From assembly GCA_020444275.1 (NCBI GenBank), contig JAHLLG010000007.1:62001-126000 (forward strand): 64,000 nt of DNA, read 5' to 3'. Source of the stretch: Bacteroidota bacterium (lineage in GTDB: Bacteria > Bacteroidota > Bacteroidia > Bacteroidales > UBA12077). Both the position numbers and the translations under genes were made by a program. This document shows, one piece after another, positions 19,114 through 26,736 of this stretch. Each line of letters starts with the position of its first letter. Position 1 is the first letter of the stretch. The notes beneath the pieces were generated by a model, which ran no database searches, was not told where the DNA came from, and saw only the letters and a list, made by a program, of their open reading frames with translations.

Positions 19114-20643
19114 TTATTCTTTTACTAAATTTTTACCGGTCATCTCCTCTGAAGTTTCCAACCCCATTAAATAGAGAATAGTTGGAGCCACATCAGCTAA
19201 TATACCATCCTGAACTGACTTAAAACGATCCGAAACTAAAATAAAAGGAACCGGATTTAAAGAGTGAGCTGTGTTCTCAGAACCATCTTTATTCACTGCA
19301 TTATCTGCATTTCCATGATCAGCAATAATAATTACTTCGTAATCATTTTCTCTTGCAGTTTCTACCACTTCGCTCACACATTCATCTATCGCTTCAACAG
19401 CTTTTGTTATGGCACTATAAACACCGGTATGACCTACCATATCGCCATTCGCAAAATTTAAACACACAAAATCAGTCTCTTGCTTTTTGAGCTCTTTAAC
19501 AATAGCATCTTTAACTTTATAGGCACTCATTTCAGGTTGCAAATCGTACGTAGCAACTTTCGGTGATTGAATTAAAATACGATCTTCCAAATCAAACTCC
19601 TCTTCGCGTCCACCCGAGAAAAAGAACGTTACATGTGCATACTTTTCTGTTTCTGCAATTCGGATTTGCCTTTTTTTGTTTTTTGATAAAATCTCACCTA
19701 ACGTGTTATTTAAGTTTTCCTTATCGTAAGCAATATGAACCCCTTTGAATGATTCATCATACCTTGTCATGGTAACATAATGTAACGGCATGGTTTGCAT
19801 ATCATAATCCGGCATATCCTCTTGCGTAAGTGCAATGGTCATTTCCCGCAAACGATCGGTTCTAAAGTTGAAACAAATAACCACATCATTAGGCTTAATT
19901 TTACCAACAGGATTGCCATCCTCACCCACCTTTACAATTGGTTTAATAAACTCATCAGTTATACCTTCATCATATGAATTCTGCACTGCTTGAACAGGAT
20001 CAGTGGTTGGTTTTCCTTTTCCGTATACAAAAAGCTCATACGCTTCTTTTATTCGCTCCCAGCGTTTATCTCTGTCCATACCGTAATAACGACCAATAAT
20101 ACTGGCAATTTCACCATTCGATCTTTGCAAGTGATCTTGAAGATTTTGAATAAATCCTTTCCCACTTCGAGGGTCCACATCACGACCATCAGTTAAAGCG
20201 TGAATATAAACCTCCTCCAAATTGTAATCTTTTGTTAAATCACATAATTTGTATAAATGCTTATCGGACGAATGCACGCCACCATCAGAAACTAAACCAA
20301 TAAAATGAACTCCGGCATTATTTTCTTTTGCATAGTTAAATGCATTAACCAACGTTTGGTTCGATGCAATACTGTTATCTTCAACTGCTTTATTGATCTT
20401 TACCAAATCCTGATATACTACTCTGCCTGCACCAATGTTTAAGTGTCCTACCTCAGAGTTTCCCATCTGTCCATCGGGTAAACCAACATTAGATCCTGAA
20501 GTTTGTAATTTCGAATTTGGATATTTAGTATATAAACTATCCATATAAGGTGTGTTCGCATTATATATTACATCGGATTTTGATTTATCGCCTATTCCCC
20601 AACCATCGAGAATTAACAATATTACCTTCTTATAATCAGTCAT
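19114..20643 (-). CDS. gpmI: 2,3-bisphosphoglycerate-independent phosphoglycerate mutase
   Basis: The 509-residue glycolytic enzyme interconverts 3- and 2-phosphoglycerate with two Mn ions. It belongs to the alkaline phosphatase superfamily: LLILDGWG near residue 10, the nucleophile Ser 63 in [26 protein letters not shown], and the late metal site [10 protein letters not shown]. Length matches the family (about 510). Its own promoter-like -7 element TAATTTTG lies at 20698-20705, after the terminator of the upstream small RNA, so it need not be read from that RNA. Confidence 0.97.
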
Positions 20644-20697: not shown

Positions 20698-20705
20698 CAA
20701 AATTA
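20698..20705 (-). promoter_or_regulatory. -7 promoter element of gpmI
   Basis: An exact TAnnTTTG match (TAATTTTG) on the minus strand lies 54 bp upstream of the gpmI ATG and downstream of the hairpin at 20750-20784. A TTTG stands 14 bp further upstream, closer than the usual 18-19, so the assignment is moderate. Confidence 0.4.
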
Positions 20706-20744: not shown

Positions 20745-20945
20745 AATGAAAAAGAGAATAACTCTTACCAAGCTATTCTCTTTTCACTAACCCTAAAATT
20801 TACTTACCTTTCTGCCTCTCGGCAGACGAAAAAACTAACCCTAAAAAACTATTAACTAAAATTTCTATTAAACCCTTAATTTTTATGCTTTACAACACCT
20901 TCAACAAGGTGAAGACTAACTAATTAACACCCTAAAACGAGGGTG
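20745..20945 (-). ncRNA. Candidate structured small RNA, about 200 nt, upstream of gpmI
   Basis: A gene-free stretch holds a complete transcription unit on the minus strand. A consensus promoter lies at 20946-20976, and the expected 5' end falls at about 20938-20945. The predicted RNA folds into hairpins with perfect stems at 20928-20945 (6 bp), 20896-20911 (6 bp), 20811-20826 (6 bp, 4-nt loop) and a terminator at 20750-20784 (11 bp, then T5CAT5). Between the hairpins the motif AGGGT recurs four times in AU-rich linkers. No convincing reading frame is present. It is most likely a trans-acting small RNA or, less likely, an attenuated gpmI leader. I cannot match it to a named family. Confidence 0.6.
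20750..20784 (-). terminator. Terminator of the candidate small RNA
   Basis: A perfect 11-bp stem pairs 20750-20760 with 20774-20784 around a 13-nt loop, followed on the minus strand by a T-rich run (T5 C A T5). It separates the RNA unit from the gpmI promoter region. Confidence 0.85.
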
Positions 20946-20976
20946 CAAAAGTAGTCAAGAAAATAATATCTCCAAA
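20946..20976 (-). promoter_or_regulatory. Consensus Bacteroidota promoter of the candidate small RNA
   Basis: The minus strand reads TTTG (20973-20976), exactly 19 bases, then TACTTTTG (20946-20953). Both boxes and the spacing match the TTTG-N19-TAnnTTTG consensus without mismatch, the best promoter in the window. Confidence 0.85.
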
Positions 20977-21142: not shown

Positions 21143-22588
21143 ATGTCTGATAAAGTAAGTGTATTTAAAAGGTTTCCGAGAACTTTCTGGTTGGCAAATA
21201 CCATGGAACTGTTTGAACGTTGGGCCTGGTATGGATTCTTCATGCTTTTTGCTAATTATTTAACGCAATCGTCTGAATTAGGAGCACTGGGATTAAGCCA
21301 AACTGAAAAAGGAATAATTATGGGTGTTGGCACCTTTTTATTATATATGTTACCTACAATTACCGGTGCACTGGCAGATAAATATGGATTCAAAAGAATG
21401 TTGTTTATCGCTTTCATGGTGTACACTTCTGCTTTTCTGATTATGCCCTTATGTAAGAGTTTCTCATCAGTATTTATTGCATATATCTATTTGGCTCTAG
21501 GAGCAGCATTATTTAAACCAATTATCTCTGCAACTGTAGCCAAAACAACAGATGACAAAACAGCATCAATTGGTTTTGGAATATTTTATATGATGGTAAA
21601 CATTGGAGCTTTTGTTGGTCCTTTATTTGCTTTATACCTTAAGAAACTATCCTTTCAATCCGTTTTTTATATCTCATCAGCAATCATAGCATTTAATTTT
21701 TTAGTTCTGCTCTTTTATAAGGAACCTGAGTCGGAGAAAAAAGATGAATCATTAGCTCAATCATTAAGAACTATTGCGAACAATATTAAAATTGCCTTTT
21801 CGGATAAGAAATTTGTAATTTTCCTACTCATTATTGCCGGTTTCTGGACAATGTATAATCAGTTATTTTTTATGCTTACTGTTTTTATAGACCAGTGGGT
21901 TGATACATCAAGTATGTATAAATTCTTTGAAATAAACTGGCCCTGGATTATAGAAACTTATGGAACAGAAGGAAATCAAATGCAGGCTGAATTTATAACA
22001 AACTTTGATGCTTTATACATTATTATATTCCAGATTATGGTTTCGGCAGTAGTAATGAGATTAAAGCCTTTAAGCAGCATGATAATCGGCTTTTTAGTTT
22101 GCACCATTGGAATGTCTTTAACTGTATTAACACAAAATCCTATATTCATTTTAGTATCTCTTCTAATTTTTGGTTTAGGTGAAATGGCTGGTTCACCGAA
22201 GATAACCGAATATATTGGGCGAATAGCGCCAAAAGATAAAGTGGGACTATACATGGGGTTTTCTTATATCCCTATGGCTATAGGAAACTTATTGGCAGGC
22301 TTCATCTCTGGTTTTGTTTATCAGAAAATGGCCGATAACATTACAATAGCCCAAAAAGAAGCTAAAATTCAAGGCTTTGACATCCCTGAACTTTCTGATC
22401 AATTTACTAAAAATGACTATCTAAATGCACTCGCATCAAAACTTGATTTAACACAGCAACAACTTACCAATTATTTATGGGAAACTCACCACCCGAACCG
22501 AATCTGGATTGTTTTATTCAGCGTAGGTATTTTTGCAGTTTTTATGTTGTACTTATATGATCGAACACTAATTAGAAAAAAGAAATAA
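21143..22588 (+). CDS. MFS transporter, POT/PTR2-like
   Basis: The 481-residue membrane protein has about 12 helices. The first helix carries ELFERWAWYGF, which resembles the E-x-F-E-R-x-x-Y/W-Y-G block of proton-coupled oligopeptide transporters, and a DKYGFKR loop between helices 2 and 3 matches the MFS motif A region. A soluble insert of about 50 residues lies near 245-290. The substrate cannot be read: the family includes peptide carriers, but Bacteroidota members are poorly characterised. It is convergent with the GH15 gene, 22 bp apart, so a link to trehalose metabolism is only positional. Confidence 0.85.
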   Translation: MSDKVSVFKRFPRTFWLANTMELFERWAWYGFFMLFANYLTQSSELGALGLSQTEKGIIMGVGTFLLYMLPTITGALADKYGFKRMLFIAFMVYTSAFLIMPLCKSFSSVFIAYIYLALGAALFKPIISATVAKTTDDKTASIGFGIFYMMVNIGAFVGPLFALYLKKLSFQSVFYISSAIIAFNFLVLLFYKEPESEKKDESLAQSLRTIANNIKIAFSDKKFVIFLLIIAGFWTMYNQLFFMLTVFIDQWVDTSSMYKFFEINWPWIIETYGTEGNQMQAEFITNFDALYIIIFQIMVSAVVMRLKPLSSMIIGFLVCTIGMSLTVLTQNPIFILVSLLIFGLGEMAGSPKITEYIGRIAPKDKVGLYMGFSYIPMAIGNLLAGFISGFVYQKMADNITIAQKEAKIQGFDIPELSDQFTKNDYLNALASKLDLTQQQLTNYLWETHHPNRIWIVLFSVGIFAVFMLYLYDRTLIRKKK

Positions 22589-22610: not shown

Positions 22611-24425
22611 TTATCCAGAGTAACGCATTGATTCAATTATTTTTTCTTCTCTGGTAATTCGACCTCCTGAAATATTCATAGCAGTTTCAATTAAAGCAAG
22701 ATGAGAGTAGGCCTGTGGAAAATTTCCCAGCAAACGTTTTGATTTAAAATCAATATCTTCGCTAAACAACCCTAAATGATTGCTATACGAAAGCAACTGT
22801 TTAAACACATTTGTTGCCTGTTCCTTATCTCCAATTTTATATAAACTATTAATCATCCAGAAAGTACAAATGGTAAATGATGAAGAGGGTTGGCCAAAAT
22901 CATCTTTATTTTTATAGCGATACATTAATCCGTTTTTACACAACTGTTTCTGCGTTTCTTTCACGGTACTCATATACCTCGGATCATCAGCTTCGATAAA
23001 ACCATATGGTTCCATAAGTAATGTTGAGGCATCCAAATCGTCTGAATCATACGACTGCGTAAATGCCCCAATCTTTTCGTTCCATGCTTTTAATAAAGTA
23101 TCTTGTTTTATTCTATCAGCAAGCTCACTCCACTCCTTAATATAATTTCTTTTATTCACTAGTTTTGCTATTTTGATAGCTCTGTCGATAGCAACCCAGC
23201 AAAGTACTTTAGAAAAAGTAAAATGTTTATGTTCTGTTCTTATCTCCCAAATACCTCTATCGGGTTTGTCCCAGTTATCTTTTACAATTTTAACAATACT
23301 TCGTACGATAGTCCAAAGTTCTTCACTGTTTTCCAGTGTTGTGTCATATAAGCTAAAATGCTGATAAATAACATCGACCAAAATACCGTAAATATCGTTC
23401 TGTTTTTGCCGATAAGCATCGTTACCAATACGAACAGGCGCTGATTCTTCATAACCTTCCAGATGACTTAGAATTTTTTCGGTTAATTTCTTCTCTCTGT
23501 TAATGCCATACATGATCTGGATTTTCTCATCTTTCTCAGGAATAATATCGATTACAAAATCCAAGTATCTGCGAGCCATATTCTTGTGCCCTAACTCGGT
23601 CATAATTTTTATAACCATCGATGCATCTCGAATCCAGCAAAAACGATAATCCCAGTTTCTGATCTCACCAATAGTTTCCGGCAATGAAGTGGTTATAGCC
23701 GCCAACACAGCTCCTGTTTTGTTGTAACTTAATAATTTTAGCACCAACGCACTTCTTAATACCTCATCGTTATATTTTTTGAAGCGCTTAGTTCGCTCCG
23801 ACCAGTTTAACCAGTACACTTTTGTTCGCTCAAGTTTTAAATAGGCGCGCTCTACATTCTGCTCAAGAATTTTCTGATTGTAACTTAGCAGAAAATATGC
23901 ATCATCTTTAAGTTTTATCTCATCAGATTTTGCAATTTTATTGAGGTCGAGGTTTGAATATAAATAAACCGAATTATACGGACCTTTTTTAGTATAACTT
24001 TTTATATACTCTTTTTGAATAATGGTTTTTGTAGGATAAGCTGCATACTCAAGCTTTGGATCATATTTAACCTTAAAAACAGGAGCCCCGGAAAGATATT
24101 TAATAAAACGAATTATATCGGGTGGGGCATAATATCCGTTGTCTTCGGTTTTGTATCTTGGCATAAAATCAACTACCTCGAATTGATGCTCACCTTGTTT
24201 AAATTTAGTTACCAAAATGTTGGTTTTGTAAATATATGATTGCGAGATCTCATAGTTTTCATCAACAATAATCTCAAAACTCCCGCCAATATTCTTATCC
24301 AGTATTTTCGCAAATACCGAAGTTGAATCGAACTCGGGTAAACAACACCAATCCATAGATCCCGACTGCGATATTAACGCCGCACTTTTACAATTACCTA
24401 TTACTCCGTAGTTTAAATTATTCAT
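22611..24425 (-). CDS. Glycoside hydrolase family 15 protein (glucoamylase/trehalase-like)
   Basis: The 604-residue protein has the standard GH15 layout: an N-terminal beta-sandwich starting at GVIGNCKSAALISQSGSMDW and a C-terminal (alpha/alpha)6 barrel with ETIGEIRNWDYRFCWIRDAS near residue 255, typical of the active-site face. No signal peptide is seen, so it acts in the cytoplasm. Family members are glucoamylases, dextranases or, in mycobacteria, trehalases. Divergent transcription from the trehalose synthesis gene (103 bp apart) makes trehalase activity plausible, but this is inference. Confidence 0.92.
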   Translation of the reverse strand: MNNLNYGVIGNCKSAALISQSGSMDWCCLPEFDSTSVFAKILDKNIGGSFEIIVDENYEISQSYIYKTNILVTKFKQGEHQFEVVDFMPRYKTEDNGYYAPPDIIRFIKYLSGAPVFKVKYDPKLEYAAYPTKTIIQKEYIKSYTKKGPYNSVYLYSNLDLNKIAKSDEIKLKDDAYFLLSYNQKILEQNVERAYLKLERTKVYWLNWSERTKRFKKYNDEVLRSALVLKLLSYNKTGAVLAAITTSLPETIGEIRNWDYRFCWIRDASMVIKIMTELGHKNMARRYLDFVIDIIPEKDEKIQIMYGINREKKLTEKILSHLEGYEESAPVRIGNDAYRQKQNDIYGILVDVIYQHFSLYDTTLENSEELWTIVRSIVKIVKDNWDKPDRGIWEIRTEHKHFTFSKVLCWVAIDRAIKIAKLVNKRNYIKEWSELADRIKQDTLLKAWNEKIGAFTQSYDSDDLDASTLLMEPYGFIEADDPRYMSTVKETQKQLCKNGLMYRYKNKDDFGQPSSSFTICTFWMINSLYKIGDKEQATNVFKQLLSYSNHLGLFSEDIDFKSKRLLGNFPQAYSHLALIETAMNISGGRITREEKIIESMRYSG

Positions 24426-24528: not shown

Positions 24529-26736
24529 ATGAATAAAATAATCATAGTATCCAATAGACTTCCTTTAAACATTAAAATAGAAGATAACGAATTGAACATA
24601 GAACCCAGTGTTGGTGGCCTTGCAACCGGCATGCGCTCGGTTCATAATGCCTATGACAGCAAGTGGATTGGCTGGACAGGATTAGCTGAGGATAATCTTT
24701 CTACTGTGGTTAAGAAAAAAGTAGAATTAGCCATTGATGCTGAAAATTGCATTGGCGTTCCATTAACAAATAAAGATGTTGATTTATATTATTTTGGATT
24801 TAGCAACAAAACCATATGGCCTTTATTCCATTACTTTACCGAATTTGCCGAGTTTAAAAAAGATCATTGGAATGCTTATTACGAAGTAAATCAGAAGTTT
24901 GCTGATGTAATAACCAAGCATTGCAAAAAAGGAGATACCATATGGATTCACGATTACCAGTTACTTTTATTACCTAAGATGATTAAAGATAAATGCCCTG
25001 GTGTTTCCATTGGATTTTTCTTACACATTCCGTTTCCTTCCTACGAGGTTTTTCGAATCTTACCCTGGCGAACAGAGTTAATTGAAGGAATGCTCGGTGC
25101 TGACCTAATTGGTTTTCACACCTACGATTATGAGCGTCACTTTTTTAGTTCGGTTCGAAGACTATTAGGATATGAAATAAACTTTAATAAAATCAATATC
25201 AATACGCGTATTGTTAAGGCAGATTCATTCCCTATGGGAATTGATTACGACAAATTCCACAATGCAGCTATTCAGCATCACAACAAGTCAATTCAAGATA
25301 AATCAGATATCCAGCAGCAATTGGACAAACACATCTTAAACACTCCGGATATCAAATTAATCTTATCGATCGATCGTCTGGATTACACCAAAGGAATTGC
25401 AAAACGACTGCATGCGTTTGAATATTTTTTGGAGAAATATCCTGAATTTCAGGGTAAAGCTTCGTTGGTTATGCTGGCCGTTCCTTCACGTGCTAATGTA
25501 GATCAGTACCAACGGATGAAAAGCGAGATAGATGAGCTTGTGGGTCGAATTAATGGTAAATTCTCAACCATCAACTGGTCTCCGATCTGGTATTTTTATA
25601 GATCATTTCCTTTCGATAACCTGATTGATCTTTACACCTCATGTGAAATTGCTCTGCTAACACCTATTCGTGATGGAATGAACCTGGTAGCAAAAGAATT
25701 TGTGGCTTCGAAAGTTAATAAAAAAGGTGTTCTGATATTGAGTGAAATGGCTGGGGCGGTAAAAGAGATGAGCGAAGCACTGCTTATTAATCCGCAAAAC
25801 TATGAGCAAATTGCAGATACACTAAAAAAGGCAATTCAGATGCCGGAAGAAGAGCAAATTGAACGAAACACCATTATGCAAAAGCGTTTACAGAGGTACA
25901 ATATTGATCGTTGGGCTTCAGATTTCTTAAATTCACTGAACAAAGTACAAGAAGATAAGGCCAAGTATATTGCTAAAAAGATGAATCCTTCCATTGAGAA
26001 AAAAATTAAAACGAATTACGACAAAGCTGAAAAAAGAATTTTATTTCTGGATTATGACGGAACACTGGTTGGATTTAAAGATAAACCGGTTGATGCAGCA
26101 CCAGATAAAGAATTGTATGAAATTCTGGATCAATTGAGTACAAATCCCAGAAACGAAGTTGTCTTAATTAGTGGCCGCGATAAAGAAACCTTTACCAAAT
26201 GGTTTGGCAATAGAAATTACACGTTAATAGTTGAGCATGGTGTTTGGATAAAAAAACCGGACGAAAACTGGCGACTTATTGAGCAAATGAAAATTGACTG
26301 GAAAGAAAATATTAAACCTGTTTTCGAATTTTATGTTGACCGAACACCTGGGTCTTTCATTGAAGAAAAAAATTATTCATTTGTTTGGCATTACCGAAAA
26401 GCAGATCCGGAGTTAGGTAATATCAGAGCCAATGAATTAAAATTTGATTTAAGTGGTTTAATCTCTAATCACAACCTTGAAATACTGGAAGGAAATAAAG
26501 TAATTGAAATAAAAAATAGTGGCATCAATAAAGGTCGTGCAGCATTGCATAAAATTAATAATACCCATTACGATTTTATTTTGGGTATGGGCGACGACTG
26601 GACCGATGAATATCTTTTCCAGGATTTACCGGCAAAAGCTTACACAATTCGTGTTGGATTAAAGAATACATTGGCTAAATATAATGTAAATACTCCCGAG
26701 GATGTTCGAAGATTGTTGAAGAATTTAATAGAGTAA
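24529..26736 (+). CDS. otsA-otsB: Bifunctional trehalose-6-phosphate synthase / trehalose-6-phosphate phosphatase
   Basis: The 735-residue fusion makes trehalose in two steps from UDP-glucose and glucose-6-phosphate. Residues 1 to about 480 are a GT20 synthase with IIVSNRLPLN at the N-terminus, WIHDYQLLLLP near 142, and the DRLDYTKGI phosphate-binding motif near 285. Residues from about 500 form a HAD-type phosphatase with the nucleophile motif FLDYDGTLVGF near 505-515 and the late acidic motif MGDDWTDEYLF. Both sets of catalytic residues are present, so both activities are expected. It faces the GH15 gene across a short divergent promoter region, and a terminator lies at 26816-26841. Confidence 0.96.
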   Translation: MNKIIIVSNRLPLNIKIEDNELNIEPSVGGLATGMRSVHNAYDSKWIGWTGLAEDNLSTVVKKKVELAIDAENCIGVPLTNKDVDLYYFGFSNKTIWPLFHYFTEFAEFKKDHWNAYYEVNQKFADVITKHCKKGDTIWIHDYQLLLLPKMIKDKCPGVSIGFFLHIPFPSYEVFRILPWRTELIEGMLGADLIGFHTYDYERHFFSSVRRLLGYEINFNKININTRIVKADSFPMGIDYDKFHNAAIQHHNKSIQDKSDIQQQLDKHILNTPDIKLILSIDRLDYTKGIAKRLHAFEYFLEKYPEFQGKASLVMLAVPSRANVDQYQRMKSEIDELVGRINGKFSTINWSPIWYFYRSFPFDNLIDLYTSCEIALLTPIRDGMNLVAKEFVASKVNKKGVLILSEMAGAVKEMSEALLINPQNYEQIADTLKKAIQMPEEEQIERNTIMQKRLQRYNIDRWASDFLNSLNKVQEDKAKYIAKKMNPSIEKKIKTNYDKAEKRILFLDYDGTLVGFKDKPVDAAPDKELYEILDQLSTNPRNEVVLISGRDKETFTKWFGNRNYTLIVEHGVWIKKPDENWRLIEQMKIDWKENIKPVFEFYVDRTPGSFIEEKNYSFVWHYRKADPELGNIRANELKFDLSGLISNHNLEILEGNKVIEIKNSGINKGRAALHKINNTHYDFILGMGDDWTDEYLFQDLPAKAYTIRVGLKNTLAKYNVNTPEDVRRLLKNLIE

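Follow-up and report, generated by a model that had tools for sequence, protein, structure and literature searches.

The gap between gpmI (phosphoglycerate mutase) and a divergently transcribed MFS transporter gene contains, on the minus strand, a compact unit designated sRNA A, composed of a promoter-like element, a predicted transcript and an intrinsic terminator. Features of this unit within the window (i.e. the whole stretch of 64,000 nt that was analyzed), of its neighbours and of two related units are summarized in Table 1. The 5′ end of sRNA A was estimated from the position of the promoter, and three-frame translation of the unit of about 195 nt revealed no long open frame. A 206-nt stretch at this locus folds at −54.1 kcal/mol, compared with −38.0 ± 3.8 kcal/mol in 200 shuffled sequences (z = −4.2), all of which it beats. 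Elsewhere in the window, a long open frame (24529-26736) resembles what we take to be a fused trehalose-6-phosphate synthase/phosphatase, and a gene near it (22611-24425) is presumably glucoamylase-like.

Table 1. Positions of sRNA A, its elements, its neighbours and the related units B and A' (window coordinates unless a locus is named)
Feature	Position	Strand	Basis or remark
Promoter of sRNA A, TTTG-N19-TACTTTTG	20946..20976	-	Sequence and promoter scan
Promoter elements: TTTG, 19-nt spacer, TACTTTTG	TTTG 20976-20973; TACTTTTG 20953-20946	-	Sequence
Predicted transcribed unit, sRNA A, about 195 nt	20746..20942	-	In 19 of 20 genus genomes
Hairpin 1, CACCCT/AGGGTG (doubtful)	20928..20945	-	5′ arm abuts −7 box; 48% of alignment cells paired, 10 long homologues
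Hairpin 2, CACCTT/AAGGTG	20896..20911	-	Pairs in 77% of alignment cells (10 homologues); two-sided changes at 3 of its 6 pairs
Partial motif AGGGT inside TTAAGGGTTTAA	20872..20876	-	Sequence; no conserved column block in alignment A1
Inner seed TTTTTTAGGGTTAGTTTTTT	20829..20848	-	Exact complement of HU leader over 14 nt (ACUAACCCUAAAAA)
Hairpin 3, TCTGCC/GGCAGA	20811..20826	-	Insertion private to window genome (homologue comparison)
Outer seed TAAATTTTAGGGTTAG, directly before terminator	20787..20802	-	Exact complement of unit B over 16 nt
Intrinsic terminator, stem and U run	20746..20785	-	Two-sided changes at 6 of 15 pairs; pairing in 97.4% of alignment cells
gpmI (phosphoglycerate mutase), neighbour outside unit	19114..20643	-	Pfam iPGM_N, Metalloenzyme
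−7-like box of gpmI, TAATTTTG, below sRNA A terminator	20698..20705	-	Sequence; no TTTG at usual distance
MFS transporter, divergent neighbour	21143..22588	+	Pfam MFS_1; PTR2/POT weaker
sRNA-like unit B	L130:1468-1556; G000 contig C3 around 20051	+	Adjoins Kdo-transferase gene (Pfam Glycos_transf_N)
Unit A'	G000:C3 about 207848-207915 (L132 / L117)	-	Own −7-like box, GACAAT/ATTGTC hairpin

The promoter of sRNA A follows the form TTTG-N19-TACTTTTG, which we take to be that of Bacteroidota promoters. The original prediction, made from the sequence of the window, had ranked it as the best promoter there, with no mismatch. The exact form is indeed present and occurs once, but 0.8 occurrences are expected per Markov-shuffled window (n = 30), so it is not exceptional and by itself proves nothing. 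A TAnnTTTGC box is found in all 16 rows of alignment A1, the rows having been extracted using a pattern for such a box. The promoter-like element that gpmI was expected to possess beyond the terminator was found as the TAATTTTG box. Visual inspection showed this box in most of the gpmI leaders examined from the genus.

Searches with a covariance model (R1) identified sRNA A in 19 of the 20 genomes of the genus, with scores of 64-91 bits; since R1 was built from the same 19 sequences, which had first been gathered by DNA search, position relative to gpmI and motif pattern, these matches arise by construction. The exception is genome G004 (given as 86% complete), whose best R1 score of 41.8 falls at a gene end and which is also without a gpmI match. 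The homologues are approximately 90 to 200 nt long, and even the shortest have a promoter box and a terminator, together with a short 5′ arm and two or three AGGGTAAATTTTTT-type repeats. When the search was extended to 295 genomes of the order, 57 gave matches at E ≤ 0.01, four of them from the genus. Outside the genus the best score was 47 bits, compared with 64-91 inside, and no convincing homologue was found among the candidates (15 scored per genome, so that diverged homologues could be missed and absence is weakly tested). The 16 non-genus loci inspected (L100-L115) look by eye like gene-end terminators. The unit was found in none of the five gpmI leaders examined outside the genus, out of 12 gpmI loci there, and a search of viral contigs with three patterns returned no match. 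A literature search, with most subscription journals outside its scope, yielded no description of sRNA A or of the HU leader element presented below.

Three perfect 6-bp hairpins had been described in the unit, and all of them are present in the sequence, but this three-hairpin anatomy is mostly not conserved. Hairpin 3 is missing from the other 18 homologues. Hairpin 1 begins right at the −7 box, and part of its 5′ arm is therefore probably untranscribed; three of its pairs show two-sided changes among the 10 long homologues (out of 19) that underlie the pairing statistics of hairpins 1 and 2. Considered together, these two hairpins pair in 62.5% of alignment cells versus 57.5% in shuffled alignments, with none of 500 shuffles reaching 62.5%. 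With the partner shifted by 2 or 3 columns, 51-53% of cells still pair, so the conservation of hairpins 1 and 2 gives modest support. Covariation of the stems, proposed as a check on the structure, was clearest in the terminator: neither its share of paired cells nor its number of two-sided changes was reached in any of 500 shuffles. The strong terminator that had been predicted is present in the sequence. The anatomy that first drew attention to the locus is partly private to the window genome, and its important part is the repeated motif.

No Rfam family matches the interval at its cut-off. The best candidate is HrrF, which scores 32.2 bits (E = 3.5e-4) where its cut-off demands 77; this match draws on the terminator and the A+T-rich linkers and was attributed to chance. 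Only three tRNAs, located elsewhere in the window, reach an Rfam cut-off, so that no model of 6S RNA, tmRNA or SRP RNA matches at its cut-off. In the original prediction, too, the unit was not recognized as tmRNA or SRP RNA, and its hairpins did not form the long rod expected of 6S RNA.

The position of the unit, on the same strand as gpmI and directly upstream of it in most genus genomes that carry both on one contig, would also suit a gpmI 5′ leader or attenuator, whose terminator would stop transcription subject to conditional read-through. However, in genome G015 the unit adjoins the transporter gene and is separated by about 13 kb from gpmI, which is on the same contig and has another leader, so that the unit is there independent of gpmI (one case, in a draft genome). 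In addition, the TAATTTTG box lies below the terminator, and the gpmI start region ranks 441st of 629 in co-folding with sRNA A. We therefore regard a leader role as highly improbable. Genus-wide conservation, terminator covariation, the TAATTTTG box and the G015 arrangement all bear out the prediction of an independent unit. Comparative sequence data thus support the reading of sRNA A as an independent sRNA outside Rfam, and the locus is very probably a genuine sRNA gene.

Judging from the aligned homologues, the part of sRNA A that is kept is UUUUAGGGUUAG, the last copy of which stands directly before the terminator. The conserved motif TTTAGGGTTAG usually occurs in two copies, an inner one in U-rich surroundings and an outer one abutting the terminator stem; the core of the outer copy is invariant or nearly so in the 19 sequences. 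Four AGGGT copies had been placed in single-stranded linkers, and four copies do exist, but the one at 20933-20929 belongs to hairpin 1, as its 3′ arm. Folding predictions for the window RNA give the two full motif copies mean unpaired probabilities of 0.15 and 0.49, i.e. the seeds would be only partly unpaired, which speaks against a pairing function. The homologue in G009 (L018) carries the same G-to-T change in both seed copies (AGTGTTAG), which suggests that the seed copies within sRNA A evolve together.

The motif is not over-represented in these genomes. TTTAGGGTWA occurs 39 times in the window's own genome (G000), versus 61 times for a reversed control, and TTTAGGGTTAG occurs 104 times in 19 genomes, versus 130 for its control. 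Given this lack of enrichment, the case for a pairing function rests on placement and conservation of the motif, not on its number.

The exact complement of the seed, CUAACCCUAAA, lies 10-12 nt upstream of the start codon in the gene encoding the nucleoid protein HU in 14 of the 15 close genus orthologues (87-100% identity); the remaining one, in G015, is one base off (CTAACCCGAAA). Four of 19 genomes are without an HU gene at this level of identity. Outside sRNA A, 77 TTTAGGGTTAG sites were found in 18 other genus genomes, and 21 of these put CTAACCCTAAA, antisense to the motif, 10-12 nt upstream of the ATG that opens a reading frame of 60 aa or more, whereas none of the 77 does so in the sense direction. 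These 21 sites precede genes for HU (13), frr (ribosome recycling factor; 4), cytochrome bd subunit I (2), acyl-CoA dehydrogenase (1) and a product without Pfam match (1), one example of each family having been confirmed by Pfam. Collapsed to gene families, the comparison becomes five antisense versus no sense placements, a small number. Four sense-direction copies lie near gene starts in G000 (L135, L141, L153 and L158), with no counterpart 10-12 nt before an ATG among the 77 sites of the other genomes. When the pattern CTAACNCTAAA-N7-13-ATG was searched in 19 genomes with its N left free, this letter was C at 35 sites, A at 7, T at 7 and G at 1; the C sites include 14 at HU and four that read A or A' on the opposite strand. 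The frr leader element is exact in four species, reads TAACCCTAAA in G000 and is degenerate in several others.

No compensatory change of seed and target was found in the sites compared (G009 and G015). In G009 both seeds read AGUGUUAG, unit B keeps CCCUAACCCUAAA, the frr leader shows no compensation and a close HU orthologue was not detected; in G015 the altered HU leader is not accompanied by a matching seed change. Genome G011 carries sRNA A, and its nearest HU gene (66% identity) is without the element. A conserved seed complementary to conserved mRNA sites is nevertheless what would mark a trans-acting base-pairing sRNA, and sRNA A presents this pattern at the level of sequence.

The strength of the predicted pairing was assessed on start regions from the window together with 800 kb of its genome, in which simple longest-frame calling yielded 635 gene calls. 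For both the inner and the outer seed, HU ranks first of 630 start regions, and frr ranks seventh for the inner and third for the outer seed. In full co-folding of sRNA A with 100-nt start regions, HU ranks 5th of 629, frr 31st and the neighbouring transporter gene 582nd. The co-folding gain of sRNA A with HU is −22.0, versus −10.3 ± 3.4 for shuffled sequences, none of 60 of which reached it, and the gain with frr likewise exceeds all 60 shuffles. Plain duplex energies take no account of internal structure and are less decisive than co-folding: of 100 shuffles, 8 reached the value for HU and 4 that for frr. Start regions pairing at ≤ −14 kcal/mol numbered 7 for the inner seed, versus 1 and 4 in two control regions, and 8 for the outer seed, versus 3 and 7. 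There is no clear surplus of further strong sites in the sampled start regions, i.e. few targets beyond HU and frr.

We consider it somewhat probable, at slightly better than even, that sRNA A is a trans-acting base-pairing RNA with repeated seeds. It would be transcribed independently and act in trans, its repeated U-rich seeds UUUUAGGGUUAG pairing with CUAACCCUAAA just upstream of start codons. The foremost target would be the HU mRNA, together with the frr leaders of several species, and pairing would probably block translation initiation. The original prediction had left a choice between a protein-sequestering and a multi-target RNA, and the latter fits better, given that complements of the motif stand at a fixed place in mRNA leaders.

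Further units bear the seed or its complement. Unit B, with the exact motif, was found in 11 of 19 genus genomes, where it has a TTTTAG-type −7 box and a terminator, from which its strand was inferred. In the alignment of the 11 genomes, AUACCCUAACCCUAAAAUUU occupies invariant columns inside a longer, nearly invariant block, UUGAUACCCUAACCCUAAAAUUUAAACCC; an 11-mer within this block is exact by selection, and the rest of the block is not. B is complementary to the outer seed of sRNA A over 16 nt, and to unit A' over 21 nt in G007, 19 nt in G000 and 14 nt in G018. Unit A' was aligned in four genomes and carries the same outer seed copy before its own terminator. Two gene ends of G000 have AAATTTTAGGG just before their terminators: L126 (about 1490-1560), which follows a Peptidase_M16_C gene, and L116 (about 1785-1875), which follows an 88-codon gene weakly similar to TM1266 (below the Pfam cut-off). 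These are possibly 3′-UTR-derived sRNAs. A further TTTTTTAGGGTTAG site, L200 (G003:C7:70489-70499), precedes a GGTAATG stretch and a hairpin resembling a terminator, and may be another unit of the family.

The complementarity between these units could be read with the roles reversed: B would then be the main regulator and sRNA A a multi-site sponge which, with A', mops it up. Consistent with this, sRNA A has two complete sites complementary to B, which in turn contains a long conserved block, and the co-folding gains of A:B (−22.4 versus −11.0 ± 3.3) and A':B (−25.7 versus −8.1 ± 2.5) surpass all 60 shuffles. The gain of A':HU does so as well, and that of A':frr exceeds 59 of 60; plain duplex energies were reached by 2 (A:B), 1 (A':B), 14 (A':HU) and 32 (A':frr) of 100 shuffles. 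However, the mRNA leaders carry B's own sequence (21 antisense versus 0 sense sites at 10-12 nt), so that B would be without such mRNA targets through its conserved block, and we consider the reversed roles distinctly unlikely. B carries the mRNA element itself and not its complement, which is most simply explained by a decoy role. B is probably a target mimic that titrates sRNA A and A', the latter sharing the terminator-proximal seed.

The HU leader element is spread far more widely than sRNA A, which was seen only in the genus. A scan of one genome per species, in which the motif was fixed so that the counts refer to element-bearing leaders and not to a share of all HU genes, revealed 65 stretches with CTAACCCTAAA 9-13 nt upstream of HU-type starts. 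We assigned 13 of them, by inference, to the genus and 52 outside it, including Odoribacter and Perlabentimonas (L347-L411). The spacing is 10-12 nt in 62 of the 65 stretches, and HU-size open frames follow in 64 (51 of the 52 outside the genus). The 25 nt upstream of the element comprise 50 distinct 25-mers with a mean identity of 39%.

Beyond the genus the HU element may have another reader, as its distribution suggests. Such a reader, a ribosome or a protein, might serve the element throughout, the match to sRNA A being a by-product; the 52 stretches outside the genus, set beside an sRNA found only within it, argue for this. On the other hand, the order-wide search, with its 15 candidates per genome, could miss diverged homologues, and three distinct units of the genus (A, A' and B) bear the seed or its complement. 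We consider it unlikely that the match is a by-product. If the whole circuit proposed below holds, the spread of the element over the order implies that other Bacteroidales would have such sRNAs of their own, as yet unseen.

The closest known system is that of the FopS/GibS sRNAs. FopS/GibS of B. thetaiotaomicron is reported to have a single-stranded seed 5′ of the intrinsic terminator and to pair near start codons; FopS has 14 paralogues sharing the seed, one of them 3′-UTR-derived, and its partner is the RRM protein RbpB (PMC11697453). FopS/GibS and sRNA A have in common a seed before the terminator and, as far as predictions go, possibly also seed-sharing paralogues and targets near start codons. 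Membership in the FopS family (RF04319, BTncRNA_FopS) was rejected at 17.0 bits (cut-off 56; E = 2.1). The conserved FopS seed of the Rfam consensus, UUAAGGUUAA, does not occur in sRNA A, which has UUUUAGGGUUAG at the same place; in register, UAGAU-UUAAGGUUAA.. of FopS faces UAAAUuUUAGGGUUAG.. of sRNA A. Thus sRNA A differs from FopS in the letters of its seed, in the repetition of the seed within one RNA of approximately 90-200 nt, and in its predicted targets, HU and frr as opposed to susC. The G000 units with a seed before the terminator, namely A, A' and the two gene ends, are far fewer than the 14 of FopS. By analogy, sRNA A may work like FopS/GibS, of which it is not a demonstrated member.

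RNAs of the CsrB/RsmZ type titrate a protein by means of a short motif repeated in their linkers, with GGA in hairpin loops. A repeated linker motif is common to these RNAs and sRNA A, whose motif is, however, AGGGUUAG, and whose complement is found in mRNA leaders. No CsrA was detected in 19 genomes (11 from the genus, 8 from elsewhere in the order), in a search that recovered the positive controls from E. coli, B. subtilis and T. maritima, and CsrB-like titration was dropped. The UUUUAGGGU repeats might instead titrate another RNA-binding protein, such as an RRM protein, in the way CsrB does CsrA. The short repeated motif with U-rich flanks fits this, as does the presence of RRM_1 proteins: a search of 19 genomes found them in 13, among which are 9 of the 11 from the genus and the genome of the window itself. 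The FopS sRNAs of Bacteroides are reported to bind RbpB (PMC11697453). Besides the missing CsrA, genome G007 (given as 100% complete) has sRNA A and no RRM_1 match, so that sRNA A may have an RRM partner but need not, and it is the complement, not the motif, that is placed before start codons. Protein titration is for these reasons very unlikely.

Two further systems invite comparison. Unit B, found by sequence complementarity, would resemble the RNA sponge for RoxS in B. subtilis (PMC8216469) as a small RNA imitating the target of an sRNA. Rfp18 of Flavobacterium psychrophilum, whose predicted targets are metalloprotease mRNAs bound via its third stem-loop (PMC9723704), resembles sRNA A, as described, as a structured, genus-wide Bacteroidota sRNA thought to act by pairing. 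The Bacteroidota sRNAs FopS, GibS and Rfp18 are reported to act on glycan-use or protease genes (PMC11697453, PMC9723704).

Assembled from these parts, the whole circuit is a tentative and, in its entirety, rather doubtful proposal: the multi-seed sRNAs A and A' would control HU and ribosome recycling through an old CUAACCCUAAA element, and B would titrate them. If true, a repeated-seed RNA aimed at HU and ribosome recycling, with a built-in decoy, would connect RNA control with the packaging of the chromosome and the capacity for translation in a large bacterial order. The HU leader element provides a concrete, testable handle in cultured species such as Odoribacter laneus.
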